Positions 13,821 to 42,713 of a stretch of DNA of 64,000 nt are shown piece by piece (the first letter of the stretch is position 1; every line of letters begins with the position of its first letter). This DNA comes from Vibrio sp. PID17_43 (GTDB lineage: Bacteria > Pseudomonadota > Gammaproteobacteria > Enterobacterales > Vibrionaceae). The translations under genes and the position numbers were made by a program. The stretch spans positions 1-64,000 of the forward strand of contig NZ_LIXM01000006.1 of assembly GCF_002608565.1 (NCBI RefSeq). The letters run 5' to 3'. The notes under the pieces are model-generated. The model made no database searches and was not told the origin of the DNA. It worked only from the letters and a program-made list of their open reading frames with translations.

Positions 13821-15482
13821 TTACGCCGCTAAAATGGCTTTTAGATCATCCTGAACGTTACTGATGCTACGCATGTCAAATTTCTCTTGAATGATAGCAA
13901 TCAAGTTAGGCGTCAGGAATGCTGGCGCCGTAGGGCCTGTGTAAATGCCTTTTACGCCTAGCGCGAATAGCGTTAGCAGAATAACAATCGCTTTTTGTTC
14001 AAACCAAGATAATACAAGTGTTAGCGGCAGCTCGTTGATATCACAGTCGAACTCTTTAGCCAACGCCAGTGCAAGTTGGATTGCTGAGTAAGCATCGTTA
14101 CATTGACCAACGTCTAATAGACGAGGGATACCATTGATGTCGCCGAACGTGTTTTTGTTGAAGCGGAATTTACCACACGCAAGTGTCAGAATAAGCGTGT
14201 CTTCTGGTGCTTCGGCAGTGAAATCTGTGTAGTAACTACGTTCTGATTTATCGCCATCACACCCACCGACTAGGAAGAAGTGTTTGATGTTGCCTTGCTT
14301 CACTTGATCGATAACAGCAGGTGCAGCGTTCATTAATGCATTGCGGCCAAAACCGACCGTGATGTTGTGCTCGATTTCATCGTGTTGGAAGCCCGGTTGT
14401 GCAAGTGCACACTCAATCACAGCACTGAAATCGTCACCTTCAAGATGCGCGATACCTGGCCAGCCAACAATGCTACGAGTGAATAGACGATCTGCATATT
14501 GACCTACATTTGGGTTAAGCAGACAGTTAGATGTCATCACAATGGCACCAGGGAAGTTAGCAAATTCCTTCTGTTGGTTTTGCCATGCGCTGCCGTAGTT
14601 GCCAACTAAATGAGGGTATTTCTTCAGTTCTGGGTAGCCGTGTGCAGGCAGCATTTCACCATTGGTATATACATTGATGCCTTTGCCTTCCGTTTGTTGA
14701 AGAATTTTTTCAAGGTCATGCAGATCGTGGCCAGAAACAAGGATACATTTTCCTTTCACTGGTTTAACGTTAACGGTTGTCGGCTCAGGGTGACCAAAGG
14801 TCGCTGTCTCACCTAGGTCTAGCATTTCCATCACTTTGTAGTTCATCAGACCAATGCGCATTGAGCAATCAAGCAGTGCACCTAAATCTTCAGGGTCGGT
14901 ACCTAACCACGCCATGATCTCATGGTACTCTGCGTAGATGTCGTTGCTTGTTTGATCAAGAACGCGAGCATGCTCCATGTAAGCTGCCGCGCCTTTTAGG
15001 CCGTATAGACAAAGCAAGCGTAATCCGATCACGTCTTCATGTACTTGGTCTTTACCACGGTTAACCGCCACCTGTGGTGCGAATGTTAATATTTCCGTGA
15101 CTGAGGCTGGTAGCTCGAAATTCGCTACGGCAGGAATGTCCGAAAGAGGCTGATTCGCTAACGTTGCAGCGGCCATGACTTCCGTCTTTAGTAGAGACTT
15201 GTATGCTTCTGCGTCTGATGTCAGTTTTAGAATACGTTCTGGGTCGAAGTTAACATTCGTTAGGGTTGAGAAGAATGCTCGCGGTGCCCATTGGTTGATT
15301 TCATCATTGATGATGTTGAATTCAAGTGCGCGTGACGCCCAAAAAGAAACCCCTTGCAGAGCGTAAACAAGCACGTCTTGTAGATCAGAAACCTCTGCCG
15401 TTTTACCACACATACCTTGTGCGAAAGAACAGCCTTTTACAGCTGGGGTTTGGATTGTCTGTTCACATTGAATACAGAACAT
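13821..15482 (-). CDS. hcp: Hydroxylamine reductase / hybrid-cluster protein
   Basis: A 553-aa Fe-S protein that reduces hydroxylamine and, in E. coli, nitric oxide at low levels. The ATG at 15482 is chosen over a start 36 codons upstream because it begins MFCIQCEQT and has GGAG 9 nt before it. The N-terminal cysteines follow C-x2-C-x11-C-x6-C, the class II ([2Fe-2S]) pattern of facultative enterics. Hybrid-cluster cysteines appear later ([33 protein letters not shown]). It is divergence-free from norR, which lies upstream on the same strand, and is followed by hcr. Confidence 0.95.
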
Positions 15483-15533
15483 ATTGGGTTCTCCAGTGAG
15501 TATCGTAATAGTCGTTTTATTTATCACTAGATA

Positions 15534-15548
15534 GCAGAATGCGTGCCA
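15534..15548 (-). promoter_or_regulatory. Sigma-54 promoter of hcp
   Basis: On the minus strand the sequence reads TGGCACGCATTCTGC. It matches the sigma-54 consensus TGGCACG-N4-TTGC at all but one specified base, with the GG and GC dinucleotides correctly spaced. Transcription would start near 15522, leaving a leader of about 40 nt before the hcp ATG. Confidence 0.8.
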
Positions 15549-15600
15549 GACTTTAAGTTTTTGAAATATAACAACAAACTTTACTAGCAAATAAGGGGTT

Positions 15601-15640
15601 GATGTAATTAATACAACATGAGTGATGTTATAATCACATC
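15601..15640. promoter_or_regulatory. Two NorR-type enhancer sites upstream of hcp
   Basis: Two copies of the NorR core GT-N7-AC lie 55-105 bp upstream of the sigma-54 core. One has GT at 15604 and AC at 15613; the other has GT at 15627 and AC at 15636 inside the larger palindrome GATGT-N7-ACATC. The half-site layout and the upstream position fit an enhancer-binding activator. Confidence 0.65.
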
Positions 15641-15656
15641 GTGCTTTGCGGGCTGC

Positions 15657-17186
15657 TTATTTATTGATTCCGAGTTTTTTACCCATTCGATACAAATTAC
15701 CACGATCCATCTGTAAAAATTCGGCGGCTTTTGCCCACACTCCACCCGTTTGGTTTAAAGCATGTTCAATTAAATCACGTTGATAGCGTTCCACCAGCTC
15801 TCTCATTGGTTGACTTTTTTGGGGGAAATGGCTTGATGTGTTTTTTACATCATTAAGTGCAGTGGAGGTATCAAAGTGATTCAACATGATGGTACTTGCG
15901 CCTTGTTGAATGGAATGTAAAGCGGCGCGGGTCAATGTATGTTCGAGTTCACGAACATTACCATACCAAGGTAAAGACTCTAATTGGCTCAACACTTTAG
16001 GGTGTACATGAAGATTTGGTGCGTTGAACTGTTGACGGACTTTTTCCAACAGGTAACCCGCTAAAACCGGAATGTCACCATCACGATTGCGTAATGGCGG
16101 CACTTTAATCGGAAATACGTTTAAACGGTGGAATAAGTCAGCTCTGAAGGTGCCCGCTTCGACTTCTTTCTCTAATTGCCGATTGGTCGCTGCGATAATG
16201 CGTACGTTGACCAGTAAATGTTGATCGCTACCTACGCGTTGCAGTTCGCCTTGCTGAATCACACGCAGTAGTTTTGCTTGTAAAATTAACGGTAATTCAC
16301 CGACTTCATCAAGAAAAATCGTACCACCGTCGGCCAGTTCAAACTTACCTGCTCGGTGACCATTTGCGCCGGTAAACGCCCCTTTGACGTGGCCGAATAA
16401 TTCACTCTCTGCGAGCCCCTCGGGCAGTGCTGCACAGTTTACGTAAATCATCGGCTTGTCGCTGCGATGAGATTGCGCATGCACCGAGTGCGCCACTAGT
16501 TCCTTACCTGTTCCCGTTTCTCCTGTGATTAAAACGGCATAATCTGATTGAGCAACGGTGGCAATGTTATTACGCAGTTGATTGATTTGCGGGCTTAATC
16601 CCACCATTTCGCCATGTTGTGAGCGTGCTTGCTGGATCAGTGTTTGAGTGACACTTTTTTGCTTTTGGTTCTGTGCTTTGAGTGCTTTTAACTGAGAAAT
16701 ATTGCGCAAGGTTGCAGCGGTTAAAGCGGCAAAAGTTTCCATGGTGACGGGGTCGATATCATCAAACGCGCCGATCGCAAGCGCATCCATCGTGAGCGCA
16801 CCGACAAGTTGTCCATCAACATATAAGCTGCACCCCATACAATCGTGGACATCGATACACTGGTTTTGTGCTAGTAGGGTGCCATCAAAAGGATCGGGGA
16901 GTGAACAATCTGCATCAAAACGTACGGGCTCACGGCTTTGTATTATTGCCTCCAGCCTAGGATGTGCTTTGGGAAAGAAACGTCGCCCTAATACAGCAGG
17001 CGATAACCCCTTGACTGCGACGGGCGTAAGAAAGTCATCTTCGTCGAAGATAAACAGGCAACTTGCATCGCAAGGGAAAACCTGAGTGACACCATCAATT
17101 AAATTTTGATATTGCTGTTCATGAGAGCGATTTGAGCTGAGGTTTAAGGCGATATTCAGTAGAACTTGGTCGAAGGCTAGGGGCAT
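15657..17186 (-). CDS. norR: Nitric-oxide-responsive sigma-54 activator
   Basis: A 509-aa enhancer-binding protein. The N-terminal GAF domain (about 20-170) senses NO through a mononuclear iron in the family. The central AAA+ domain has Walker A GETGTGKE, the sigma-54 contact GAFTGA and Walker B TIFLDEVGELPL. The C-terminal Fis-type helix-turn-helix is GGVWAKAAEFLQMDRGNLYR. It is encoded directly upstream of hcp in the same direction, and a GATGT-N7-ACATC site precedes its own start, suggesting autoregulation. Confidence 0.93.
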   Translation of the reverse strand: MPLAFDQVLLNIALNLSSNRSHEQQYQNLIDGVTQVFPCDASCLFIFDEDDFLTPVAVKGLSPAVLGRRFFPKAHPRLEAIIQSREPVRFDADCSLPDPFDGTLLAQNQCIDVHDCMGCSLYVDGQLVGALTMDALAIGAFDDIDPVTMETFAALTAATLRNISQLKALKAQNQKQKSVTQTLIQQARSQHGEMVGLSPQINQLRNNIATVAQSDYAVLITGETGTGKELVAHSVHAQSHRSDKPMIYVNCAALPEGLAESELFGHVKGAFTGANGHRAGKFELADGGTIFLDEVGELPLILQAKLLRVIQQGELQRVGSDQHLLVNVRIIAATNRQLEKEVEAGTFRADLFHRLNVFPIKVPPLRNRDGDIPVLAGYLLEKVRQQFNAPNLHVHPKVLSQLESLPWYGNVRELEHTLTRAALHSIQQGASTIMLNHFDTSTALNDVKNTSSHFPQKSQPMRELVERYQRDLIEHALNQTGGVWAKAAEFLQMDRGNLYRMGKKLGINK

Positions 17187-18054: not shown

Positions 18055-18666
18055 TTATTCTGAGTTCAAAGTATGGAAGCCCGAATAAATACGAGTAAAT
18101 GTCGTAAACCAGCATGCGGTGCCAAAAATGTAGGCAATGACATCAAAATGTTGTGGGAACAAGCAGAGCAACGCAAAGCAGGCAATAGTCTCGGTACCTT
18201 CCGTTAAACCGCTCATATAGTAGAGAGACTTGTTCGTGTACACCGGATTATCGATACCGCGTTTGCTAGCCATGATGGCAAAGGCCAAGAAACTGCTGCC
18301 AGTGCCGATGAATGAAAAAATCAAAAACGCACCGGCAACGGCATTTTGCTCTGGGTTTGCCAGTACAAAGCCAAATGGGATCAGCGAATAAAATAGGAAA
18401 TCCAAGCTGATATCGAGGAAACCACCGGCATCGGTGATGCCTTGTATTCTCGCTAATGCGCCATCCAACCCATCGCAGACTCGATTGAGTAAAATGAACA
18501 GTAAAGCGAGCGTGTATTGTTCGGTGACCAATGCGGGTAGGGCAAAACAACCGAGTACAAATCCAAATAATGTGATTTGATTCGCGGTCACGCCGCGATT
18601 ATCGAGCAGTTTTGCACTTTGCGTTAATGGCCAACGAATAACTTTGATACTTAAACGATCAAGCAT
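18055..18666 (-). CDS. ynjF: CDP-alcohol phosphatidyltransferase, YnjF-like
   Basis: A 203-aa integral-membrane enzyme of the phospholipid CDP-alcohol transferase family. The catalytic signature DG-x2-AR-x8-G-x3-D-x3-D is complete, in DGLDGALARIQGITDAGGF followed by two spaced aspartates (about residues 66-93). Four or more further TM helices follow. It overlaps the ATPase gene by 8 bp at the end of the ynjBCD-like operon, as ynjF does in E. coli. The alcohol acceptor is unknown. Confidence 0.85.
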   Translation of the reverse strand: MLDRLSIKVIRWPLTQSAKLLDNRGVTANQITLFGFVLGCFALPALVTEQYTLALLFILLNRVCDGLDGALARIQGITDAGGFLDISLDFLFYSLIPFGFVLANPEQNAVAGAFLIFSFIGTGSSFLAFAIMASKRGIDNPVYTNKSLYYMSGLTEGTETIACFALLCLFPQHFDVIAYIFGTACWFTTFTRIYSGFHTLNSE

Positions 18667-19306
18667 TGTTCGTCTCCCAAGGCCAGTTTAGGCAACGACT
18701 GCCTTGTGGGATATCTTCTTTATCATGCGTCACCATTAAGGCTGGGATATTCGCATGTTGTAACTGTTCTACAACCCAGTTACGGAATTGAACGCGAAGA
18801 TCTTTATCTAGTTTGCTGTATGGCTCATCAAGTAGCGCAACTTTAGGTTTAGCCAGTAGCATACGTGTAAGAGCGATACGCGCTCTCTGACCGCCAGATA
18901 TTTGGTCAGGAAAAGACTCTGCGAGCTTAGTCAAAGAAAGGTGCTTAAGTGCCAGTATTGCACGCTCTTTACGCTCTGCACCTTTAATTGAGTTTGGTAG
19001 AGCAAACGCAATATTTTCCCATACGGTTAGGTGTGGGAATAGTAAATCATCCTGAAATAGAATTCCGACCTGGCGTTTGTGCGCTGGTAGAGCATCTAAG
19101 CGTTGATTATCCAGTGTGATCGAGCCTGAATAGTCGAACTCTGCTGATAAGTGCCCGGCAATGGCATCTAACAACGTTGATTTGCCACAACCACTTGGCC
19201 CCATTAGTGTCACAATTTCACCTTTCTCTACGGTAAGGTTGAAAGAAGAAAAAAGTATATCGCCATGGGATTTACGGATGGCGAGGTTTTCGAGACAAAG
19301 ACTCAT
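18659..19306 (-). CDS. ynjD: ABC transporter ATP-binding protein, YnjD-like
   Basis: A 215-aa importer ATPase. The ATG at 19306 (MSLCLENL) is preferred to an upstream in-frame start. It places Walker A GPSGCGKST at about residues 38-46, the signature SGGQRARIALTR near 133 and Walker B ALLDEPYSKLD near 156. It is short for a nutrient-import ATPase, with no C-terminal regulatory domain. It overlaps the permease gene by 35 bp and the phosphatidyltransferase gene by 8 bp, so the operon is tightly coupled. Confidence 0.88.
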   Translation of the reverse strand: MSLCLENLAIRKSHGDILFSSFNLTVEKGEIVTLMGPSGCGKSTLLDAIAGHLSAEFDYSGSITLDNQRLDALPAHKRQVGILFQDDLLFPHLTVWENIAFALPNSIKGAERKERAILALKHLSLTKLAESFPDQISGGQRARIALTRMLLAKPKVALLDEPYSKLDKDLRVQFRNWVVEQLQHANIPALMVTHDKEDIPQGSRCLNWPWETNNA

Positions 19307-20981
19307 TAGGCAGTAAACCTTTAATAGACAACCGGCGATACTTAACGTGTAAACGACTAAGTAGAATCGCAAAAGAGAAGAACATCAACGGCAATAGGGC
19401 TTGCCAAATTGCGTAAATAGCAGTGACGCGACGGTCAAAACCACTCGATAGAGCAACCGCTTCGGTGGTAATAGTGCTAATACGGCCAGCTCCCAGTACA
19501 AGAGTCGGTAAGTACTGAGCCAAGCTAACACTAATGCCGACAGCCCAAGCAAACGCAATCGCAGGTAAGAGAATCGGTAGCTTTACTTTTAACCAAGCTT
19601 GTAATGGTGATTTCCCCAAACTTAACGCTACTCGCGTTAAACCATTATCAAAGCTGCGCCATGGGCCATCAAGAGAGAGATAGACAAATGGGAAAGCGAA
19701 GAACACATGCGCCCAACATACCCAGAAGAAATAAGCATTGCTATCGAGGTACAGTGTCGCTACTTGCATGCCAAACAACACAGAAAGCTGAGGAATCAAC
19801 ATTGGTACCGCTATGATGTAGCCCGGCACTTGCCAGCGGTAACGCAGTCGGTATTCATGAGCAATCAGTGAAAGTAAAAGGGCGATCAACGCACTAATGA
19901 CAGCAATCAGCATACTTTGTTCTAGCGTACTAAGAATGTTTTGCCATTCGTATTCCCAAAAGCGTAGACTGTAGCGGCTTGGTAGTAAATCAGGGAAGCG
20001 CCAACGCTGAGAAAAGCTCCATACTACCATGAGTGGCACCTTTAACAGTGTGAGCAAGGCAATCACCGCGAACAAGGTTTTTCCTGGTAGACGGAAGCCG
20101 CTGCGACCTGAGTATTGCCAACGCTTGACGCCTTTGGTGATGCTCCATTCCACCAAGCGAGCAAAACCAATTAATAGAGTTGCGATGACAAAAAGAACGA
20201 CAGCGCCTGCCGCGGCTCTTGGTAACAAAGAGAGGTCAGGGTCATTAAACCATTGCCAAACTAGCACCGCAAACGTCGGAGGATTCGTTGGACCGATAAT
20301 CAGTGCGACATCAACAACCGATAAGCTGTAAGCAATGACGGCGAGCATAGGAAAGCGTAGCTTTGCAAACCATTGTGGGAACACGCATTTCCACCAAGCT
20401 TGTGCAGAGGTATAGCCCATGGAATGGCTGACTTTTTCGATTTTTTCTACTTTTAAATGCTGAAGAATTGGGATGCTCATCAGTAGTAGGAAAGGCACTT
20501 CTTTGAAAGCAAGCATAACGATAAGGCCAAGCGCATAAGGGTCTTTAATAAGCAACGCTAAGTCGTTAACGGTTTGCGCATTTGGGTCATATCCAAACAA
20601 TTGATTGAGTGTACGTATCCCCATGCCTGTTGGAGCAAATAGGAACGCAAAACCAATCGCGAAAGCCACGTGAGGTATAGCGAGAAGTGGGGAAAGGCTG
20701 AGTTCAATTTTACGCCAGAATTTGCTTCCCCAAGAGGCTTGCAGAATCGCAAACGTGATCAAGCAAGCTAGGTAGCTACTAAAAATAGCAGAATAAAAAG
20801 TCAGGCTAATTGACGTCCAAACGCCCTCCCAATCAAAGACCGCATTGAAGCCATCAAGAGAGAAGTGGTTCAAACCGATAGGCGGTACGTAACCGAGCGC
20901 AGAAACGATTACTCCTAGTAATCCAGGGATGGTCGGCAAAATACATACTGCGATAATAACTAGATACAGCGCTCTTAACAT
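19272..20981 (-). CDS. ynjC: ABC transporter permease with two fused MetI-like domains, YnjC-like
   Basis: A 569-aa inner-membrane permease with two consecutive binding-protein-dependent transport domains (about 50-270 and 330-545), as in ThiP and FbpB-type importers. EAA-like loops are visible at HSMGYTSAQAWWKCVFPQW and at ALSLGKSPLQAWLKVKLPIL. One protein supplying both permease halves fits with the single ATPase encoded next. Substrate unknown; the family relatives import thiamine, iron or other small ligands. Confidence 0.88.
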   Translation of the reverse strand: MLRALYLVIIAVCILPTIPGLLGVIVSALGYVPPIGLNHFSLDGFNAVFDWEGVWTSISLTFYSAIFSSYLACLITFAILQASWGSKFWRKIELSLSPLLAIPHVAFAIGFAFLFAPTGMGIRTLNQLFGYDPNAQTVNDLALLIKDPYALGLIVMLAFKEVPFLLLMSIPILQHLKVEKIEKVSHSMGYTSAQAWWKCVFPQWFAKLRFPMLAVIAYSLSVVDVALIIGPTNPPTFAVLVWQWFNDPDLSLLPRAAAGAVVLFVIATLLIGFARLVEWSITKGVKRWQYSGRSGFRLPGKTLFAVIALLTLLKVPLMVVWSFSQRWRFPDLLPSRYSLRFWEYEWQNILSTLEQSMLIAVISALIALLLSLIAHEYRLRYRWQVPGYIIAVPMLIPQLSVLFGMQVATLYLDSNAYFFWVCWAHVFFAFPFVYLSLDGPWRSFDNGLTRVALSLGKSPLQAWLKVKLPILLPAIAFAWAVGISVSLAQYLPTLVLGAGRISTITTEAVALSSGFDRRVTAIYAIWQALLPLMFFSFAILLSRLHVKYRRLSIKGLLPNESLSRKPRHP

Positions 20982-20990
20982 GTGCTCGTA

Positions 20991-22148
20991 TTAATTCCCG
21001 TAACGTTTCAACCATTCTTTTTCTAATGCAGCCTGCCAACTAGGGTGGGGCTCTGCGATAGATTTAAATTGTTGTGTGTTTTTAGCCGTACCTGTTAAGT
21101 ATTGGCTGTTTAGCACCGAAGGGTCACCCCAGATGTTGATGTCACCTTTACGAGATTGTGCTTCAGGACTCAATAAAAAGTTAATCGCAACTTGTGCTCC
21201 GGCAATTGCGTTTGCGTTCCATGGAATGGCTAAGAAGTGGATATTAGACAGTGCACCGGCGTCCATCGCGTATGCTTTGGTACTTTCCGCTAGATTACCG
21301 CTCGATTGTGCAGAAAACACTGCGTTCGGGTTGAATGTCACAGCAAGATCAATTTGGCCATCATCGAGTAATTGCACACTTTCTGCCGTACCTGCAGGGA
21401 ATTGCTTACCACCACGCCACGCCACACGATGGAACTCATCTAAGTAGCGCCAAAGTGGTTGAGTTACCGAAGCAAATGTTTCTTTTGTTACTGGTTGTTG
21501 TAGCTCTGGCGCATTGTTTGTCACTTCAATCAGCAGTGATTTAATAAAGCTGGTGCCGTGAAACTCGGGTGGGCGAGGGTAGGTTAAACGATTTGGAAAC
21601 GCTTTTGCGTAGCTCAGCATTTCAGAGAATGAACGTGGTGGATTATTAAGCGTGTCTTCATCATGGATAAAGACCAATTGACCGACACCCCAAGGTGCTT
21701 CTAAGCCATCTGTTGGTTCAGAAAAGTCTACATCAACCGGTAACGTTTTATCGACATATTGCCAGCTAGGTAGTTGGTCAACAAAAGGTCCAAACAACAG
21801 TTGGTTGTCTTTCATTGATTTGAAGTTTTCACCATTGATCCAAACCATGTCTACACTGCCGCCACTGTTTTTTCCTGCGGCTTTTTCTGCAATGATACGT
21901 GTTGTGGTTTCAGAAATATCGGTGACTTTGACATGGTTAAGGGTCACGTTGTAGCGAGACTTTAGCTCTTTTCCGGCCCACAGAATGTAGCGGTTGATTT
22001 CTTGGCTACCACCCCAAGCATGAAAATACACGACCTGTCCGTCTGCCTGCTGTTCAATGGCTTGCCATTTTTCCGGAATAGAAGATGCAAAAGAGGAAGT
22101 AGCGAAAGTGGCGGCTAAAATACCAAAAGTGCTCAGTAATTTTTTCAT
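20991..22148 (-). CDS. ynjB: ABC transporter substrate-binding protein, YnjB-like
   Basis: A 385-aa periplasmic binding protein. The start at 22148 (MKKLLSTFG) gives a canonical signal peptide with cleavage near Ala-Ser-Ser (about residue 22); the longer in-frame start adds a hydrophilic leader and is unlikely. The mature protein (VYFHAWGGSQEINRYILW early; PAGTAESVQLLDDGQIDLAVTFN late) fits the YnjB family of extracellular solute-binding proteins. It is first in the ynjBCD-ynjF operon, 9 bp before the permease. Confidence 0.87.
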   Translation of the reverse strand: MKKLLSTFGILAATFATSSFASSIPEKWQAIEQQADGQVVYFHAWGGSQEINRYILWAGKELKSRYNVTLNHVKVTDISETTTRIIAEKAAGKNSGGSVDMVWINGENFKSMKDNQLLFGPFVDQLPSWQYVDKTLPVDVDFSEPTDGLEAPWGVGQLVFIHDEDTLNNPPRSFSEMLSYAKAFPNRLTYPRPPEFHGTSFIKSLLIEVTNNAPELQQPVTKETFASVTQPLWRYLDEFHRVAWRGGKQFPAGTAESVQLLDDGQIDLAVTFNPNAVFSAQSSGNLAESTKAYAMDAGALSNIHFLAIPWNANAIAGAQVAINFLLSPEAQSRKGDINIWGDPSVLNSQYLTGTAKNTQQFKSIAEPHPSWQAALEKEWLKRYGN

Positions 22149-22483
22149 ACGTAATCCGTGTTTTTTATCTTTGTCTTTATTTTGGTGCTTTGTTTTTCTA
22201 TGCAATGAAAAACGCTTAATTTTGACAATTAATATAGGGCCTTAATAGTATGGACGATCCTTTTTCTCTATATGGATAGTAATCTATCTTGGTCTATTAT
22301 CAATGTGAATTTGATAATAGATTTAGAGAATTACTCGCCTTGTGAAGCTATACCAATCAACGCCTCATTTTAGCCGTAAACTTAATCAGAGGTGGCTTGA
22401 AGTATGACCAGACCGATATGAATGAAAAAGAGTGCGGCTCCTGATAAACCGCACTCTTAACGTTTCAATATGGATAGACCGGA
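22149..22483. promoter_or_regulatory. Intergenic region upstream of ynjB
   Basis: 335 bp with no gene. It holds the terminator of the TVP38 gene and, at 22293-22321, a perfect 11-bp inverted repeat (TCTATTATCAA-N7-TTGATAATAGA). A shorter one, GATAG-taat-CTATC, lies just beside it at about 22276-22289. The pair sits 128-173 bp upstream of the ynjB ATG. They look like operators; the binding protein is unknown. Confidence 0.45.
22428..22458 (-). terminator. Rho-independent terminator of the TVP38 gene
   Basis: A 10-bp perfect stem (AAGAGTGCGG/CCGCACTCTT) is followed on the minus strand by TTTTTCATT. It separates the rhodanese-to-TVP38 unit from the ynjB unit. Confidence 0.85.
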
Positions 22484-23161
22484 TTACTTCGCCAATTCTT
22501 CCATGTTGATGCCTTTTTTCTTCGCAATATATTTTGGAATCAGTGACATACCAAACAGGATAAGACCTGCCGCCGCGAACTTAACAAGCAGCATCGCTGA
22601 TACACCGTTGGTCGCGATATCACCCGCCATGTAAGCAAAGATGAAAGCACCTGGCGCCATGGTTAGTAGGGATACTAACGCGTAAGTTCCAAGGCTCAGG
22701 CTCGTTAGACCGTAAGCGTAGTTCTGCAGACTGAATGGGAATACCGGCACTAGACGAGTTAGGATCAAGAAGCTGGTGCCGTTTGCAGCAACGCCGTCGT
22801 CGATCTTTTTGAAGATTGGGTTATCACCAAATTTTTTCATGATTGTGTTACGTAGTAGGAAACGTGCCACAATGAATGCTACCACCGCACCAAGCGTTGC
22901 AGAAAACAGCGCTAACACACCGCCTTTGATAGGACCAAATACAATGCCCGCTACAATGGTGAACGCACTGCCCGGTAGTAGGAACACACATGCAAACACG
23001 AATGCTGCTACGAATACTGCGTAACCCCAAACACCAAAACTTGCGATCCACTCTTGTAGGCTCTTGATGTCAGTGATGATCTCAAGAATGCCAGTTTGTT
23101 TTGCTGCAAATAGTGCTAGCGCTACTACTGCGATTAATAAAGCAATTTTTACAAATTTCAT
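22484..23161 (-). CDS. TVP38/TMEM64 (SNARE-associated, DedA-like) membrane protein
   Basis: A 225-aa membrane protein with about six hydrophobic segments. The family core is visible as FVFACVFLLPGSAFTIVAGIVFG (about residues 55-77), followed by FLILTRLVPVFPFSLQNYAYG (about 130-150). E. coli YdjX and YdjZ, encoded beside ynjABCDEF, belong to this family. The biochemical role is unknown. It is the last gene of the rhodanese/oxidoreductase unit, 24 bp after the CCG-domain gene. Confidence 0.87.
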   Translation of the reverse strand: MKFVKIALLIAVVALALFAAKQTGILEIITDIKSLQEWIASFGVWGYAVFVAAFVFACVFLLPGSAFTIVAGIVFGPIKGGVLALFSATLGAVVAFIVARFLLRNTIMKKFGDNPIFKKIDDGVAANGTSFLILTRLVPVFPFSLQNYAYGLTSLSLGTYALVSLLTMAPGAFIFAYMAGDIATNGVSAMLLVKFAAAGLILFGMSLIPKYIAKKKGINMEELAK

Positions 23162-23185
23162 TGTTTTTACTTCACTTAAAGATGG

Positions 23186-23956
23186 TTATACATTCATACA
23201 CTTGATTAGACCCGCTTTTGATTTGTAGCGGTTGAACCAAGCTTTCACAGGGCTTGCTAGTACGTTTACTGGTGGCTCATCGTTTTGCATGATGACTGGA
23301 CCAAACATCAGATCCAGAATGTGCCAAGCTTTCTTGCCAACGCCCATCATAGAGCCACGACAAGCCGAGCAGTAAACCACCACATTATCAGTTTCAAACT
23401 CTTCTGCACGGCGTACTGCAACGCGGTTAGCAACATCTGGATTCGCAGGCACAACCATGCCACCAAAACCACAACAGCGAGTGTTTTCACGAGTATGCTC
23501 AGGCTCAGAAATTTTGTAGCCAAGCTCAGTTAGGATCCAGCGAATACCGTCCTGTAGCTCTTTTTCGTAGCGAGTTGAACAAGAGTCATGAATAGAGAAC
23601 ACCACATCACTGTGTTTCGCTTTGCCAACCAATTCTTTTGGTAGGCCAATTTCTGGTAGCAGCTTCCACAGAGATACTGGCTTTTGTTTACCGCCAGATT
23701 TTTTGATCATGCCGTAGCAGCTTTGACACGCGACAATCACTTCTTGGGCTTCTAACTTGTCGAAGTCTGCTTGCAGGTCGCCGTAACGTTCTTTGAACTT
23801 GTCGTATTGACCGATTGCTGCGGTTGGTTTACCACAGCACTTTTGCACCGCGCCCATCTCTGGGAACACGTTTTTTAGGTGCTGTGCAATTGCCGCTACA
23901 CCTTCAGGAGAGTAGGATGGCAGACTGCATCCTGGCATAAATACTTTATTGCTCAT
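23186..23956 (-). CDS. HdrB/GlpC-like CCG-domain iron-sulfur protein
   Basis: A 256-aa soluble protein with two cysteine-rich CCG domains. The first has Cys in MPGCSLPS, then KCCGKPT and CQSCYG; the second has DSCSTRYE, RCCGFGG and YCSACRG. Such domains bind non-cubane Fe-S clusters or carry electrons in heterodisulfide reductase HdrB, DsrK and GlpC. It is encoded 10 bp after a flavin/Fe-S oxidoreductase, so the two probably form a thiol/disulfide or sulfur-compound redox complex (inference). Confidence 0.85.
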   Translation of the reverse strand: MSNKVFMPGCSLPSYSPEGVAAIAQHLKNVFPEMGAVQKCCGKPTAAIGQYDKFKERYGDLQADFDKLEAQEVIVACQSCYGMIKKSGGKQKPVSLWKLLPEIGLPKELVGKAKHSDVVFSIHDSCSTRYEKELQDGIRWILTELGYKISEPEHTRENTRCCGFGGMVVPANPDVANRVAVRRAEEFETDNVVVYCSACRGSMMGVGKKAWHILDLMFGPVIMQNDEPPVNVLASPVKAWFNRYKSKAGLIKCMNV

Positions 23957-23966
23957 GTGTGTTTAC

Positions 23967-25748
23967 CTAGCGTTTAGCCATTGTGAAGAGTTTAGAGAAG
24001 CCCAGAAGCTGGTGCATATTGATTGCCTTGTGACCTTTGATTGGCGATTCGCCATTGTTCGCTTTAACAAAGTCGTTACGAGCGCCAAGGAAGATTTCTT
24101 TCATTGGGAAATCTTTTGGACAAACGATCGTACATTGGTCACAGGCGTTACATGAGTAAGCCAGTTGCGGATCCATTGTCTTGTTATTAACGAAATCAGA
24201 GAATGCCGTTTTCGGGCAATCCGTGAAGTCGTTCATCATGATACATTCGCTCATACATAGCTTACAGCTACATTGCAGACAGCGAGATGCTTCTTGCTTG
24301 ATCTGCTCTTCAGTGAAGCCTAAATCCACTTGTGCAAAATCTTGCTTGCGCTCTTCAGCGTCACGTAGTTCACCGTGTAGGCGAGGGGTATCTACTGTAC
24401 CTTTTGGAAGTGGTACATCTAGACGAGATTGGTAGCTGTATTCTTGCTCGAAGTCACGATCTTCAGTCAGTGGACGAGACGTTAGGAAGCGCTCAACACT
24501 CATTGCGGCTTTACGGCCTAGTGCCATCGCTTCAATCACGATGTTACCGCCGCACGCATCACCGGCTACGAATACGTCTTCTAGGCTAGAAGCCAGTGTT
24601 TGCTTGTCGACAACATAACGACCGCCACGAGTTTGCTCTAGTGCGCCGTCAGTGATGTCAGCGACGATTTGACCTGTTGCGAATACCACCGTATCCACTG
24701 CGATGGTTTTGCTTTCGTCGCTGTATTGAGGTGCAAAGTTGCCTTGCTCGTCAAAGATAGATAGCACTTTCTTAATGGTGATACCCGTTACTTTGCCGTT
24801 TTCATGTTCGATGGCAACCGGACCCCAGCCTGCGTTGAACACGACGTTTTCTTCTAGTGATTCGTCGATTTCGATTTGGCTAGCAGGTAGGTTTTCCATG
24901 CTCTCCAGAGAACATTGGTACACTTCGCTTGCACCGATGCGCCAAGAAGAGCGCGCACAGTCCATCGCTACGTCACCACCACCGATGACCATCACACGTT
25001 TACCGGCACGTGGGAATTGGCGGGTTTCAGAGATCTCTTTCAAGTATTCAACCGCAGAGAACACGCCGTCGTTGTCGTGACCTGGTAGAGGAATGATAGA
25101 GCCTACGTGTGCACCGTGAGCAAGAATCACCGCATCGTGCTCGTTTCGTAGTGCTTCAAAACTGATGTCTTTACCGATCTCAACGCCAAAACGGGTCTTA
25201 ATACCTAGCATGCCTAAGTAGCTGTATTCGAAGTCGATCACATCGCGAGGTAGACGGTATTCAGGAATACCCACGCGCATCATGCCGCCGTATACGTCTA
25301 ACTTTTCGTAGATCGTTACTTCGTGACCTTGGCGGCGAAGCTCAATTGCTGCTTGAGCACCAGCAGGGCCGGCACCAATGATAGCGATGTGCTTGTTGGT
25401 TAGTGGAGCGATGTTAAGATCCCAATGGTCTTGGCTATCTAACTTCTCAGCAACGAAACGTTTGATACCTGCAACACTGATCGGCTGACCGAACTCAGTG
25501 TTACGACGGCAAGACGCTTCACAAGGGTGTGCACAAATGCGGCCAAGTGTTTGAGGTAGGAATAGTTTGGTGCGGATAAGATCTAACGCACCTTGGAAGT
25601 CACCTTCACCCGCCATGCGAACGTATTGTTTTACATCCGTGTGCATTGGACATGCGGTTTGACATGCTGGATCAGAATCACCCATACAGCCATCGATGAT
25701 CATCTGGGCGGTGTCGTATAACTTTTGGCTAAAAATTACATTGTTCAT
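23967..25748 (-). CDS. GltD-like FAD/NAD(P) oxidoreductase with N- and C-terminal Fe-S domains
   Basis: A 593-aa protein. The N-terminal GltD-type helical Fe-S domain has CQTACPMHTDV, then GRICAHPCEASCRR (about residues 28-80). Next come two Rossmann nucleotide sites, IIGAGPAGAQAAIELRRQG (FAD) and VIGGGDVAMDCARSSWRIG (pyridine nucleotide). The C-terminal ferredoxin-like domain has CLQCSCKLCMSEC and CNACDQCTIVCPKDF. It probably takes electrons from NAD(P)H and passes them to the CCG-domain protein encoded next. This differs from true glutamate synthase small subunits, which lack the C-terminal ferredoxin region. Confidence 0.87.
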   Translation of the reverse strand: MNNVIFSQKLYDTAQMIIDGCMGDSDPACQTACPMHTDVKQYVRMAGEGDFQGALDLIRTKLFLPQTLGRICAHPCEASCRRNTEFGQPISVAGIKRFVAEKLDSQDHWDLNIAPLTNKHIAIIGAGPAGAQAAIELRRQGHEVTIYEKLDVYGGMMRVGIPEYRLPRDVIDFEYSYLGMLGIKTRFGVEIGKDISFEALRNEHDAVILAHGAHVGSIIPLPGHDNDGVFSAVEYLKEISETRQFPRAGKRVMVIGGGDVAMDCARSSWRIGASEVYQCSLESMENLPASQIEIDESLEENVVFNAGWGPVAIEHENGKVTGITIKKVLSIFDEQGNFAPQYSDESKTIAVDTVVFATGQIVADITDGALEQTRGGRYVVDKQTLASSLEDVFVAGDACGGNIVIEAMALGRKAAMSVERFLTSRPLTEDRDFEQEYSYQSRLDVPLPKGTVDTPRLHGELRDAEERKQDFAQVDLGFTEEQIKQEASRCLQCSCKLCMSECIMMNDFTDCPKTAFSDFVNNKTMDPQLAYSCNACDQCTIVCPKDFPMKEIFLGARNDFVKANNGESPIKGHKAINMHQLLGFSKLFTMAKR

Positions 25749-25769
25749 TGACTGCTATTTCCGTTTTAA

Positions 25770-26753
25770 TTAGCTCTTGACGTTGATAACGTTCACTTCA
25801 GGATTCTTTTGCTCGTAGTGAGCGTGGCTGTATTCAATCCATGAACCATCGTAGTTATAGACGCCTTCCGCACCTAGAACTTCGGTCAGAATCATGGTTG
25901 TGTGAGCCGAACGTACGCCGGATTGACAGTAAGCAATGACTTTCTTGCCTTTAATGATGTCACCGTAAAGTGCTTGCAGTTCTTCTGCTGATTTTAGTGT
26001 GGTGTCTTCGTTTAACGCTTTTGTCCAGTTGATATGAACACTGCTCGGGATTGTACCAGGGCCGAATGCGCCAGAAACTGCCACCTCACCGTTGAACTCG
26101 TCATTACTGCGAGTATCTAGGATTACCCAATCTGGGTTGTTTTGTGCTGCGATAACCATGTCTAGCGTTGCTAGTGCATTGTTTTCTTGTTTCGCATTTG
26201 GTGCGTCGTATTGGGTAGCAGCAACGCTTGGGTTTTCAGAACCAGTAGGGAAACCTGCACCCAACCAAGCATTTAAACCACCGTCTAGGTAACGAATGTC
26301 GTCGTGGCCTAAGTTGTAGATTTGCCAGTAAAGGCGAGCGGCATCGTGATGAGAGCTCGCAGCGTAAACCACGATCGTGCTGTCTGCTGTTGCGCCAAAG
26401 CGACCAAGGATGGTTTCCATTTCTTCAACGCTGTTGCTCATGCCCTCAAAGTCGTAAACACCTTCCGTTGCAGAGTAATCGTTGCGCCACATAGTGTAAG
26501 AACCAGAAATAGGACGATCCGGTTTGATAGGGTTTAGCGCACCGATCACGACCACATCTTTGTCTGCGTCCATCATTGCTTTGAGCTGTTGAGCTGAAAT
26601 GAAATGTTCTGGGTGAGCGTATTCTGTGAATTTCTGCTCTTGTGCAGCCGCATCCACAGTCACAGCCTCAGCAGAGAACATCGTATTGTAAGTTGAGTAA
26701 CCAACGGCTGCGACAGCCGCGAGCACACCCAACGCAATAGTCGACTTTTTCAT
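25770..26753 (-). CDS. Periplasmic double-rhodanese sulfurtransferase, YnjE-like
   Basis: A 327-aa protein with an N-terminal hydrophobic signal or anchor (residues 5-25) and two rhodanese domains (about 45-165 and 185-310). The active-site cysteine is in the second domain, AYCQSGVRSAH; the first lacks a catalytic Cys. E. coli YnjE is a related thiosulfate sulfurtransferase with more rhodanese modules, encoded in the same gene neighbourhood. It is the first gene of the unit leading to the FAD/Fe-S and CCG proteins, which suggests a role in periplasmic sulfane-sulfur handling. Confidence 0.87.
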   Translation of the reverse strand: MKKSTIALGVLAAVAAVGYSTYNTMFSAEAVTVDAAAQEQKFTEYAHPEHFISAQQLKAMMDADKDVVVIGALNPIKPDRPISGSYTMWRNDYSATEGVYDFEGMSNSVEEMETILGRFGATADSTIVVYAASSHHDAARLYWQIYNLGHDDIRYLDGGLNAWLGAGFPTGSENPSVAATQYDAPNAKQENNALATLDMVIAAQNNPDWVILDTRSNDEFNGEVAVSGAFGPGTIPSSVHINWTKALNEDTTLKSAEELQALYGDIIKGKKVIAYCQSGVRSAHTTMILTEVLGAEGVYNYDGSWIEYSHAHYEQKNPEVNVINVKS

Positions 26754-27062
26754 GAGTTGTTTCCATATTTTAATTTAAAGTTTTGCTGACGAGTCACTTA
26801 GCTCGGCAGTTAGAATCTGGTTGAAGCTAAGACGAAGACACATAAACTTAGTAATTTTTCATAAGTGTTCATGGCGTATTAACACTCTTAAATGAGTGAA
26901 CTTGCATCTAGCCCTTAGTGGGTAAGTATTTTGAGTAAATTGACACTTAGGAGGTATTGTGGTTTTCCACAATAATGAAGCCAACTTGATCTAAAGCAAC
27001 AAAGTTATTGGGGGAAGTGATGGTAAAATGTGCTACAGACAATTTTTAATATTATTTCGTAA
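26754..27062. promoter_or_regulatory. Divergent control region between the rhodanese unit and the TtrS-like kinase
   Basis: 309 bp with no gene. Inverted repeats are ATTGTGG-TTTT-CCACAAT at 26956-26973, AGTGTT-N11-AACACT at 26864-26886 and CACTC-N6-GAGTG at 26883-26898. Any of these could bind the adjacent LuxR-type response regulator; this is inference. Confidence 0.4.
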
Positions 27063-28868
27063 GTGATTAATAACCATTCTCAAAAAATTAAACTGTTTAT
27101 TTTTGTTATTTCAACAGTGTTCTCTTATGTTTCATTTGCGAACGAGCCTACAACTCAAAGAAAAGACTATGAAGTCGGGGTGTTGGCGTTGAGAGGGTAT
27201 GCTCACGCAAGGCAAGCTTGGCTACCCACACTGGATTGGCTAGAAGAACGAAATCCCGGCTACCAATTTAATTTACATACCTATGATTTTGACCAACTGG
27301 AAGATGCTTTTCTGCATGATAGGTTGGACTTTATATTGACCAGTCCAGGTCAGGCAACCAAGTTGGCGCGTGCATATCCTATAAACTGGGTGGCCACGCA
27401 AAAAACCGCGTATAGCAACTTGCCGAATAAGTCGATTGCGTCAGTGGTGGTGGTTCGTGGGGAATCGCCATATAAGACACTGAGAGACATAAATAAAGCG
27501 AAAGTGGCGGCGGTATCGGAAAAAGCATTTGGTGGCTTTATTGCCCTTCAATATGAATTGGATAAGTTAGGCTATTTCAATTCGTCTTTTTTTGAAAAGA
27601 TTCAGTTTACCGGACCGCCAACGGATCAGTTGATACTTGATGTAATAGGTAATGCTCTTGATGTGGCGATTGTACCTGCGTGTACATTGGAAAATATGGC
27701 GAAAGAAGGGCGTATTCAGTTACATGATTTACGAGTACTCAATGAAAAACGTCCAGCAGACTCAGTTTGCGCGGTGAGTACACCACTTTACCCAAACTGG
27801 ACGTTAGCAATGACGGAGCGTGCCCCTACCTATGTGGGTCAAATGGTCGCTCAGAGCCTATTTGCTATGCCTACTGACCATCCTGCGGCGATCGCTGCAA
27901 ATAATGTGGGCTGGATGCTACCTGCGCCAAGCATTAATGTTGATCAGGTATACAAACATCTCGATATGCACCCTTTACAAAAGTCTTGGGGGCAAAAAGT
28001 TAAAGAGTGGCTACACGAGAATCAAATCATTGCCATTGCTGCAATGCTGACGTTGTTATTGTTGACGGCTTATCACTTTTGGTTGCAGTGGAGATTTCAG
28101 CGCAGTCGCGAGGAACTGAAAAATGCAATGAATGATTTGCGCCGAAAAAGCACCATGTTGGAACATGCACAACGCATCACGATTGTTGGTGAACTTGGCA
28201 GTAGTATCGCGCATGAAATCAATCAACCACTTGCTGCGATAAAGAATTATAGTCAAGGCGCTAAAGTACGTATGAAGCGAGGTACAACACCTGAAGAGAT
28301 GTTGCCTATTATCGAAAAAATTCAACAACAAGTGACCTCTGCCAGCGATATTATCCAGCGTTTACGTAGCTTAATAAATAAAACACCGATAGAGAAAAAC
28401 TGGGTGGATTTACCGTCCCTGATTGAAGATGCAATGAAGTTGGTGGATTTCGAGTTTCAGCGTCATCGTATCCATTTGGGAGTGTTGTATTCTGGGGAGC
28501 CGCAAAAAATTTATGCAGATGTGACGGGCCTACAGCAGGTGATCTTAAATGTGCTCAATAACGCCAAAGACGCTTGCCTTAGCCACATGCCAAAACGCAC
28601 AGGTTTATTCGTTGATTTGCATGTCAGCTTTTGTGATGAGATGGTCATTGTTGATGTTACTGATAACGGCGTTGGTATTCAGCAGCAGGAGATCCCCCTT
28701 GACCAAGCATTCTACACCACGAAAGATAATGGCTTAGGACTAGGTTTGGCAATTTGTCGCGATGTCATAGAAGGGCATCACGGCAGTATTCGTTTTCGGT
28801 CAATTGAGCCTTCAGGTTGTCAAGTGACCATCATTTTACCGTATCAGGAGGCTTGTAGTGAGTCGTAA
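27063..28868 (+). CDS. TtrS-like sensor histidine kinase with PhnD-type periplasmic sensor
   Basis: A 601-aa membrane kinase with a GTG start. A signal peptide (1-26) is followed by a periplasmic phosphonate-binding-protein-like domain (about 35-290), a TM helix (about 319-340) and a HisKA domain. The phospho-accepting His is in SSIAHEINQPLAAIKNYS, followed by an ATPase domain with N-box LNNAKDACLS, DNGVGI and GLGLGLAIC. This is the architecture of TtrS, the tetrathionate sensor of Salmonella, but no tetrathionate reductase genes lie in the window. It is divergent from the rhodanese/HdrB unit, which it probably controls. Confidence 0.88.
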   Translation: MINNHSQKIKLFIFVISTVFSYVSFANEPTTQRKDYEVGVLALRGYAHARQAWLPTLDWLEERNPGYQFNLHTYDFDQLEDAFLHDRLDFILTSPGQATKLARAYPINWVATQKTAYSNLPNKSIASVVVVRGESPYKTLRDINKAKVAAVSEKAFGGFIALQYELDKLGYFNSSFFEKIQFTGPPTDQLILDVIGNALDVAIVPACTLENMAKEGRIQLHDLRVLNEKRPADSVCAVSTPLYPNWTLAMTERAPTYVGQMVAQSLFAMPTDHPAAIAANNVGWMLPAPSINVDQVYKHLDMHPLQKSWGQKVKEWLHENQIIAIAAMLTLLLLTAYHFWLQWRFQRSREELKNAMNDLRRKSTMLEHAQRITIVGELGSSIAHEINQPLAAIKNYSQGAKVRMKRGTTPEEMLPIIEKIQQQVTSASDIIQRLRSLINKTPIEKNWVDLPSLIEDAMKLVDFEFQRHRIHLGVLYSGEPQKIYADVTGLQQVILNVLNNAKDACLSHMPKRTGLFVDLHVSFCDEMVIVDVTDNGVGIQQQEIPLDQAFYTTKDNGLGLGLAICRDVIEGHHGSIRFRSIEPSGCQVTIILPYQEACSES

Positions 28869-29460
28869 TCTTTGTCCTCTTTATGTCGTTGATGATGAAG
28901 AGTCAGTGCTGGAATCGATGGCCTTCATGCTAGAGAGTTATGGTTATGAGGTAGAGGCCTATTCTAGTGGCGTCGATTTTTTAAATGACGCAGATTTGGC
29001 GTCTGCTGGTTGTGTATTGCTCGATAGTCGCATGCCAGAAATGCGCGGCCAAGATGTCCACCAAATCATGAATGAGCAATTTAGCCCGATCAGCGTCATT
29101 TACTTAACGGGGCACGGGGATATCCCGATGGCGGTAGAAGCATTAAAGAGTGGGGCATTAGATTTCTTCCAAAAGCCCGTCGATGGCAATGCGCTAGTTT
29201 CTGCAATCGAGTTAGCAATGGCAAAGTCATTGGGTAACCTTGATAAGTTGCACGCTAAGCACATACTACAAAATTTGACTAAGCGTGAGAGGGAAGTGCT
29301 CGATTTGGTTGTAAAAGGAATGAAAAACCAAGAGATGGCGAATCAGTTGTGTGTTTCTTTACGGACGATTGAAGTGCACCGCTCGAATGTCATGAGAAAA
29401 CTTGAGGCAGAGAGCGTCGCGACGCTTATTCGAAAAGTGGGGCATTTAATTGAAGCATAA
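28858..29460 (+). CDS. TtrR/FixJ-like response regulator
   Basis: A 200-aa regulator with an N-terminal receiver domain (phospho-Asp in VLLDSRMPEMRG, about residue 53) and a C-terminal LuxR-type helix-turn-helix (LTKREREVLDLVVKGM then SLRTIEVHRSNVMRKL). It overlaps the kinase by 11 bp. The GTG start at 28858 is supported by AGGAGG 6 nt upstream. It is partner to the TtrS-like kinase; the nearest plausible targets are the divergent rhodanese unit and the ynjBCD-ynjF operon. Confidence 0.9.
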   Translation: MSRNLCPLYVVDDEESVLESMAFMLESYGYEVEAYSSGVDFLNDADLASAGCVLLDSRMPEMRGQDVHQIMNEQFSPISVIYLTGHGDIPMAVEALKSGALDFFQKPVDGNALVSAIELAMAKSLGNLDKLHAKHILQNLTKREREVLDLVVKGMKNQEMANQLCVSLRTIEVHRSNVMRKLEAESVATLIRKVGHLIEA

Positions 29461-41678: not shown

Positions 41679-41688
41679 ACTTCCCTCC

Positions 41689-42663: not shown

Positions 42664-42713
42664 AAGAATCCTTTTCTTCATTTTAAACATCGTTTTTATT
42701 ATCAATGCCTTAA

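Follow-up and report, generated by a model that had tools for sequence, protein, structure and literature searches.

A conserved two-part gene cluster of Vibrio with a possible role in the uptake and reduction of a sulfur or selenium compound

The first 64,000 nucleotides of contig NZ_LIXM01000006.1 of Vibrio sp. PID17_43 (hereafter the window) contain, at positions 18055 to 29460, a cluster of ten genes with relatives in the ydj-ynj region of Escherichia coli. The genome is a 4.2-Mb assembly of 54 contigs (G000), and its nearest named relatives are Vibrio. All ten genes claimed in a preliminary description of this DNA were confirmed, both as open reading frames and by their domains. The minus strand carries two units separated by a gap of 335 bases (22149-22483). 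The first comprises a rhodanese, a flavin adenine dinucleotide (FAD)/iron-sulfur (Fe-S) protein, an HdrB-like CCG protein and a TVP38-type membrane protein (the redox half), and the second comprises YnjB, YnjC, YnjD and YnjF (the import half). A sensor kinase and a regulator are encoded on the plus strand, divergent from the rhodanese gene. The features are as follows, with identities referring to proteins of E. coli K-12.

18055..18666, minus strand: ynjF-like gene for a cytidine diphosphate (CDP)-alcohol phosphatidyltransferase (PF01066; 61% identity to YnjF)
18659..19306, minus strand: ynjD-like gene for an ATP-binding cassette (ABC) ATPase (PF00005; 47% to YnjD)
19272..20981, minus strand: ynjC-like gene for a permease with two halves in one protein (weak permease matches in both halves, no Pfam match; 31% to YnjC)
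20991..22148, minus strand: ynjB-like gene for a periplasmic binding protein (NF008633, 541.3 bits against a cut-off of 203; 46% to YnjB)
22293..22321, minus strand: inverted repeat TCTATTATCAA-7 bases-TTGATAATAGA, upstream of ynjB
22484..23161, minus strand: TVP38-type VTT membrane protein, candidate lipid flippase (PF09335; 40% to YdjX)
23186..23956, minus strand: HdrB-like two-CCG protein (PF02754 twice)
23967..25748, minus strand: GltD/PRK12771-like NAD(P)H-FAD protein with N- and C-terminal Fe-S domains (PF07992, PF14691, PF13534)
25770..26753, minus strand: two-domain rhodanese with a hydrophobic N-terminus (export or anchor) and the loop CQSGVRS at Cys276 (PF00581 twice; 28% to YnjE)
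26955..26974, no strand assigned: perfect palindrome TATTGTGGTTTTCCACAATA, 20 bases, candidate operator of the FixJ-type regulator
26986..26999, minus strand: FNR-like box TTGCTTTAGATCAA, 11 bases from the palindrome
27063..28868, plus strand: PhnD-type sensor histidine kinase (PF12974, PF00512, PF02518; 366.7 bits against the TtrS cut-off of 750, NF040750)
28858..29460, plus strand: FixJ/TtrR-like response regulator (PF00072, PF00196; 212.8 bits against the TtrR cut-off of 290, NF040749)

We compared this arrangement with the best 80 of 120 loci in named genomes that encode a relative of the CCG protein (query alignment of 38 HdrB-like sequences). These were 22 loci of Vibrionaceae and 58 loci of Bacilli, Clostridia, Halanaerobia, Spirochaetes, Fusobacteria, two other genera of Proteobacteria and various metagenome-assembled genomes. 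Each locus was viewed with 10-kb flanks; many of the 58 contigs were short, and 42 of these loci exceeded 17 kb. The sensor-regulator pair, rhodanese, FAD protein, CCG protein, TVP38 and YnjC occurred in all 22 Vibrionaceae loci, YnjB and YnjF in 19 each. Outside this family the FAD protein was encoded in 57 of the 58 loci, rhodanese and TVP38 in 47 each, YnjB in 35 and YnjF in 25, and rhodanese, TVP38 and YnjB stood together in 28 of the 42 longer loci. Co-occurrence beyond close relatives, a test set beforehand in the preliminary description, was hence found, with the neighbourhood conserved across Vibrionaceae, Bacilli, Clostridia, Halanaerobia, Spirochaetes and Fusobacteria, and the genes form a co-assembled, conserved system. 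Its parts are rare: the HdrB-like gene was detected in 6 of 291 genomes of Clostridia (three of the six by weaker matches of 236-338 bits), the YnjB family in 7 of 185 genomes of Gammaproteobacteria, and close HdrB-like matches in 4 of 61 genomes of a sample of relatives, the window genome included.

Within the redox half, both five-cysteine sets of the HdrB-like protein proved complete, as C10, C40, C41, C77 and C80 and likewise C126, C161, C162, C196 and C199 were invariant in 38 of 38 aligned rows. In HdrB, two such sets hold non-cubane clusters. The predicted structure (predicted local distance difference test, pLDDT, 91) matched the folds of EtfD, LutA and HdrB. The protein therefore resembles methanogen HdrB in its cysteine sets and its fold (8rwn_B, TM-score 0.59 by query length), whereas the donor in the window is the PRK12771/GltD-like FAD/Fe-S protein instead of HdrA/HdrC, and we know of no coenzyme M or coenzyme B in this kind of host. 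In the FAD protein, 15 cysteines arranged in two N-terminal and two C-terminal groups were invariant in 72 of 72 rows, which would offer room for up to four [4Fe-4S] clusters. In five loci (L067, L088, L090, L091 and L095), a single open frame of 850-883 residues encodes both the FAD and the HdrB-like protein. Moreover, the two ends of the model NF045663 (diclust_near_Sec, pyridine nucleotide-disulfide oxidoreductase/dicluster-binding protein) matched the FAD protein (261.5 bits) and the CCG protein (212.5 bits) of the window, although this model describes a single chain with a cut-off of 530 and the window has two genes below that cut-off in a genome without SelD. The fusions, together with the match to both ends of one model, are direct evidence that the FAD and HdrB-like proteins work together. 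Cys276 of the rhodanese was present in 56 of 56 aligned rows. Among 67 relatives the loop read CQSGVRS in 57, CQGGVRS in three and CQSAVRS in three, while four lacked the pattern; the N-terminus was hydrophobic in all 67, with a lipobox-like motif in 11. The TVP38 alignment showed no conserved cysteine, and thus a cysteine relay through this protein is not supported.

The import half ends with the CDP-alcohol transferase YnjF, the part closest to its E. coli relative, to which the preliminary description had given no role. Enzymes of the CDP-alcohol phosphatidyltransferase family carry the motif D-xx-DG-xx-AR...G-xxx-D-xxx-D with eight residues between R and G. The window protein passes this test with D65xxD68G69xxA72R73...G81xxxD85xxxD89, the residues being conserved in 95% or more of the 42 rows aligned and the R-to-G gap being seven residues. 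In some loci without YnjF, a trio of genes was found in its place, consisting of a TIGR04283 protein, a TIGR04282 protein and a kinase weakly similar to thiamine kinase (families named from one member each). Of the non-Vibrionaceae loci with YnjB, 25 had YnjF without the trio, seven the trio without YnjF, none both and three neither, these three on contigs that end early (Fisher p = 3e-7, with kinship among loci not accounted for). The count covers the 10-kb flanks, and a host with the trio may carry YnjF elsewhere. The starred branches of the FAD tree force at least four changes between YnjF and the trio, one of them within the sister pair L054/L066. This tree contained the window, six of the 22 Vibrionaceae loci and also L076 and L081 (trio, with no YnjB in the stretch seen), and it left out L067 and L091 (FAD fused to CCG), L087 (FAD cut short) and L092 (no FAD). 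That a kinase, a nucleotidyltransferase-like protein and a glycosyltransferase can take the place of YnjF suggests that both sets act on the hydroxyl of the imported molecule. A nucleoside hydrolase gene accompanied five of the nine loci with a TIGR04283-type gene and also one YnjF locus.

A second swap concerns the redox half. In L107 and L109 TVP38 forms a single protein with a MerA/lipoamide-dehydrogenase-like flavoprotein; the fusion stands beside YnjBCDF in the former and near YnjB, YnjC and YnjF in the latter. According to PMC10127716, the commonest fusion of COG0398 proteins is of this type. Such fusions (COG0398 with PF07992/PF02852) resemble the window in coupling TVP38 to a pyridine-nucleotide disulfide-type flavoprotein, but the flavoprotein of the window belongs to another family and is encoded by a separate gene.

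For the binding protein YnjB, no solved structural relative was found by sequence. Its predicted structure (pLDDT 91.4) was nearest to STM0429, FutA1 and a thiamine-binding protein, and this fold group binds many types of ligand, namely 2-aminoethylphosphonate, ferric iron, thiamine, polyamines and sugar phosphates. YnjB also has conserved aromatic and acidic residues. Two diverged YnjB-family loci of one gammaproteobacterial genome (L110, 7059-9482; L111, 10267-12669) each lie beside a TonB-dependent siderophore-type receptor, a hint that the ligand there may be too large or too rare for porins.

The two halves differ in their affinities. The median identity of the window proteins to their non-Vibrionaceae relatives was 55% for the FAD protein, 60% for the CCG protein, 56% for TVP38 and 45% for the rhodanese, and in the import half 33% for YnjB, 40% for YnjD and 29% for YnjF. 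Compared with the E. coli identities given above, the difference is small for YnjD. In a quick tree of YnjF, which gave long-branch warnings, all 11 gammaproteobacterial rows fell on one side of a branch (Shimodaira-Hasegawa approximate likelihood-ratio test, SH-aLRT, 90). The Vibrio cluster thus seems to combine an import half of the E. coli type with a redox half of the Bacillota type, even though Bacillota have an import half of their own. As the halves differ in ancestry in Vibrio, the same combination was probably put together more than once, and we take this repeated assembly as the strongest sign of a shared function.

In line with the preliminary description, E. coli groups relatives of several of the cluster genes, since homologues of YdjX, YnjB, YnjC, YnjD, YnjE and YnjF are all present. 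The comparison covered the ten cluster proteins, leaving aside the other open reading frames of the window. YnjB, YnjC, YnjD, YnjF, TVP38 (YdjX) and the rhodanese with its hydrophobic N-terminus (YnjE) are homologous to members of the stretch ydjXYZ-ynjABCD-ynjE-ynjF at 28-61% identity, and the one TVP38 protein of the window is closer to YdjX than to YdjZ (26%). E. coli has in addition YdjY, YdjZ and YnjA, whereas no FAD/Fe-S gene, HdrB-like gene or TtrSR-like pair lies in its stretch; YdjY and YnjA had no match below an E-value of 0.1 among the ten cluster proteins. The E. coli relatives are activated by FNR (PMC3688515), a control that has its counterpart in the FNR-like box of the Vibrionaceae. 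The genes ydjXYZ-ynjABCD, ynjE, yedEF and yjiLM of E. coli are co-expressed as one group under anaerobic conditions; the authors link this group to the use of molybdenum and selenium and leave it uncharacterised (PMC7888660). In an E. coli interaction screen ynjABCDEFI were grouped with Suf genes (PMC3930520). A table in the YgfI section of PMC9068703, seen without the meaning of its column, lists ynjE, ydjY and yjiL of E. coli K-12 together with negative values, in line with a co-regulated set.

The intergenic region between the sensor and rhodanese genes contains two candidate regulatory sites. The palindrome lies 88 bases before the start of the sensor and 201 bases before that of the rhodanese, and it was exact in 21 of the 22 Vibrionaceae loci. 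The 4.2-Mb assembly has a single exact copy, with no second one, for example, upstream of ynjB. With up to two mismatches one more place was found, and a reversed control pattern gave an equal total, so that only the exact copy stands out. The neighbouring box, FNR-like by comparison with the FNR consensus, was found in its strict form in 14 of the 22 loci and as a one- or two-letter variant in seven more, and it was unmatched in L025. The spacing of 11 bases was constant in the 21 loci in which both sites were matched. The inverted repeat upstream of ynjB is distinct from the palindrome and recurred in close form in four of eight Vibrionaceae loci compared (L018, L019, L022 and L047).

The sensor and regulator had been described as TtrS/TtrR-like. 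A PhnD-type kinase and a FixJ-type regulator are indeed present, but both scores lie below the TtrS and TtrR cut-offs, and the sensor belongs to a clade apart from TtrA- and PhsA-linked sensors. The TtrS score test is strict, as the cut-off of 750 was reached by none of 247 genomes of the order. The sensor tree contained 28 domains, namely those of the window, of eight of the 22 cluster sensors and of 19 of 20 places fetched from among 47 TtrS-model matches in 38 of the 247 genomes; L175 was left out as it had the same identities as L016. Neighbours of these sensors were labelled by gene size and order, and seven were checked by family (three TtrA-like below the cut-off, four PhsA). The nine cluster sensors formed a clade of their own (100/100), as did five PhsA-linked rows with L171, which has no PhsA-sized neighbour gene (100/100). 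The twelve TtrA-linked rows did not form one clade. TtrSR or ThsSR proper is therefore rejected on the basis of the tree, with low TtrS and TtrR scores in addition. Like TtrSR and ThsSR, the pair combines a PhnD-type sensor kinase and a FixJ-type regulator that adjoin their target genes (PMC5408782), and two sensor cysteines were kept in 28 of 28 rows. It differs in having S in the motif TSPGQ where all 19 others have N (TNPGQ-type motif), GPP where the others have GFP or GYP, and no molybdenum reductase in the window cluster; no TtrBCA gene was found among the ten cluster genes. ThsS senses thiosulfate and a Shewanella TtrS senses tetrathionate (PMC5408782), and a third ligand of the same general kind would be the natural prediction for the cluster sensor. 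Uptake of a polythionate by the importer, as suggested earlier, is not indicated: the fold of YnjB does not favour it, the sensor lies outside TtrS/ThsS in the tree and below the TtrS cut-off, and the part nearest to E. coli is the CDP-alcohol transferase.

Taken together, the two-half system may serve the uptake and reduction of a compound containing sulfur or selenium under low oxygen, which we regard as quite possible. The following mechanism would be the most economical reading. Expression would be turned on from the palindrome and the FNR-like box by an FNR-type activator and the PhnD-type sensor, whose signal would be a small oxyanion of sulfur or selenium. Outside the cytoplasmic membrane, as its N-terminus suggests, the rhodanese would accept sulfane sulfur or selenium at Cys276. 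Inside, FAD and up to four [4Fe-4S] clusters could relay electrons from NAD(P)H to the pair of non-cubane clusters whose ligands are conserved in the HdrB-like protein, which may then cleave a disulfide, a persulfide or a selenotrisulfide. YnjBCD would import an alcohol-type organic molecule that YnjF, judging from the protein families and the swaps, may join to a phospholipid, and TVP38 might move the lipid made by YnjF across the membrane. It may be speculated further, as the boldest reading, that YnjF and TVP38 are present because a lipid carries the sulfur or selenium atom across the membrane. YnjBCD would then import a headgroup alcohol, YnjF or the trio would attach it to a lipid, the exported rhodanese would load sulfur or selenium outside, TVP38 would flip the loaded lipid, and the FAD/HdrB-like pair, or the MerA-like protein fused to TVP38, would unload it by reduction. 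This lipid-borne shuttle is improbable, but if true it would give one reason for every gene and for both swaps together.

A number of observations speak against uptake and reduction by one joint system. YnjB was not seen within the stretch in 11 of the 42 longer loci, and six long loci (L042, L044, L048, L072, L082 and L094) had the FAD and CCG genes without rhodanese, TVP38 and YnjB, showing that parts can stand apart. No FAD or CCG gene was found in the E. coli region, nor in any of the seven loci from six further genomes of Gammaproteobacteria. Among these seven, YnjBCDF was complete only in L106, L107 and L108, with no recognised redox partner in L106 and L108. In L110 and L111, YnjB and YnjD are accompanied by no YnjF and no trio within the stretch covered, and YnjB is the sole part seen in L105, so that the rule of YnjF or trio is not universal. 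Rhodanese and HdrB-like domains serve many reactions. The FNR-like box, at up to two mismatches, occurred three times in the window against 1.76 times expected from shuffles, no more often than by chance, and its weight hence comes from its conservation. Finally, the ligands of the YnjB fold group, among them amines, iron, thiamine, phosphonates and sugar phosphates, indicate that the import half may carry a molecule free of sulfur and selenium.

The cluster could accordingly consist of two unrelated units. One would be a thiol-redox enzyme of the cytoplasm together with an exported rhodanese, the other a conventional importer of a nutrient (an amine, a thiamine-like compound or a phosphonate) with its own lipid use. 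The fold neighbours of YnjB, the occurrence of parts of either half without the other, including L105, L110 and L111, and the different ancestry of the halves in Vibrio all fit this view. However, both halves occur together in many lineages with different versions of YnjBCDF, the E. coli homologues are co-expressed (PMC7888660), and in L107 TVP38 is fused to a disulfide-reductase-type flavoprotein beside YnjBCDF. We therefore consider two unrelated units unlikely, though a serious alternative.

With regard to the element handled by a joint system, the sulfur proposed in the preliminary description is too narrow on its own, given the links to selenium in Bacillota. The sulfur side is represented by the sensor family, the rhodanese and the grouping of ynjABCDEFI with Suf genes in E. 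coli (PMC3930520). For selenium, selD scored over the cut-off in 41 of 50 non-Vibrionaceae hosts, in most with an in-frame TGA. Among the 291 genomes of Clostridia, 66 had selD, six the HdrB-like gene and five both, that is, five of six carriers against 61 of 285 others (Fisher p = 0.0026; 0.0097 without the centre genome, a known carrier). Genes of a LysR group stood in eight of the 58 loci, YedE/FdhT-like genes in seven and TusA/YedF-like genes in three; each group was named from one member, and the members checked were all below their cut-offs (for the LysR_Sec-type neighbour, 232 bits against 250). YedE, YedF and LysR_Se have been proposed as selenium genes (PMC5322559). As there is evidence for both elements, a chalcogen compound is favoured and the element is left open.

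A more specific role in selenium supply, in which the system imports and reduces a selenium compound for SelD and selenoproteins, would account for the frequency of selD in the non-Vibrionaceae hosts, its enrichment among carriers in Clostridia and the LysR_Sec-like and YedE-like neighbours. It would also agree with the position of ynjE and ydjX of E. coli near selD and their co-expression with yedEF (PMC7888660). Against it, none of the 22 Vibrionaceae hosts has a selD gene, the best match in the window genome reached 51 bits against a cut-off of 125, and 9 of the 50 other hosts lack the gene too. In the sample of 61 relatives, all four cluster carriers were without selD, and the three genomes of the same genus with selD lacked the cluster. 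Three of the six HdrB-like matches in Clostridia were the weaker ones mentioned above, with neighbours unread. Selenium for selenoproteins cannot be the whole story in Vibrionaceae, where it was rejected; as a rival for Bacillota we retain it at a rather low probability.

An organoarsenic (arsenosugar) system is very improbable and largely refuted, because ArsS was absent from the window genome and from 47 of the 50 non-Vibrionaceae hosts, including all nine with a TIGR04283-type gene, even though TIGR04282 and TIGR04283 are named arsenosugar glycosyltransferases in NCBIfam, occurred together in four of 15 ArsS loci (drawn from among 91 matching genomes) and TVP38 was fused to or beside a MerA-like flavoprotein in three of these 15 (L117, L119 and L126). 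ArsS was present in the host of L090, which has a TIGR04282-like gene alone. The ArsS loci of Proteobacteria (L112-L126) hold the same fusion family as L107, which indicates that parts are shared between arsenic-linked loci and the system described here.

In the literature searched, which most subscription papers lay beyond, no description of the combined gene set was found. New here are the complete cysteine sets of the HdrB-like protein and its fusion to the FAD protein, the swap between YnjF and the trio, the TVP38-MerA-like fusion, the mixed ancestry, and the separate sensor clade with its palindrome. They recast the uncharacterised ydj-ynj group of E. coli as a two-half system with replaceable parts. 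Uptake and reduction of a chalcogen compound by such a system would have testable consequences, among them a lipid dependent on YnjF and a TtrS-type biosensor that responds to a new class of ligand and whose candidate operator is mapped. It also predicts an HdrB-type enzyme that runs on NAD(P)H and occurs outside methanogens. If TVP38 acts with a thiol-redox enzyme, this would bear on what TVP38/TMEM41B-type proteins move.

Further genes were observed in or around these loci. Six Bacillota loci (L042, L044, L048, L054, L057 and L066) encode, within the cluster or next to it, proteins of one family with 109-133 amino acids, and the one member checked had no Pfam or NCBIfam match. In the window, positions 13821-17186 encode a hybrid cluster protein (hydroxylamine reductase) and a NorR-type regulator on the same strand beyond YnjF, with one open reading frame of 166 amino acids in between. 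About 10 kb from the ten-gene cluster, positions 39696-44975 encode an MtrB-type outer-membrane protein (TIGR03509), a protein of 338 amino acids and an OmcA/MtrC-type decaheme cytochrome (TIGR03507), which make up an extracellular electron transfer cluster.

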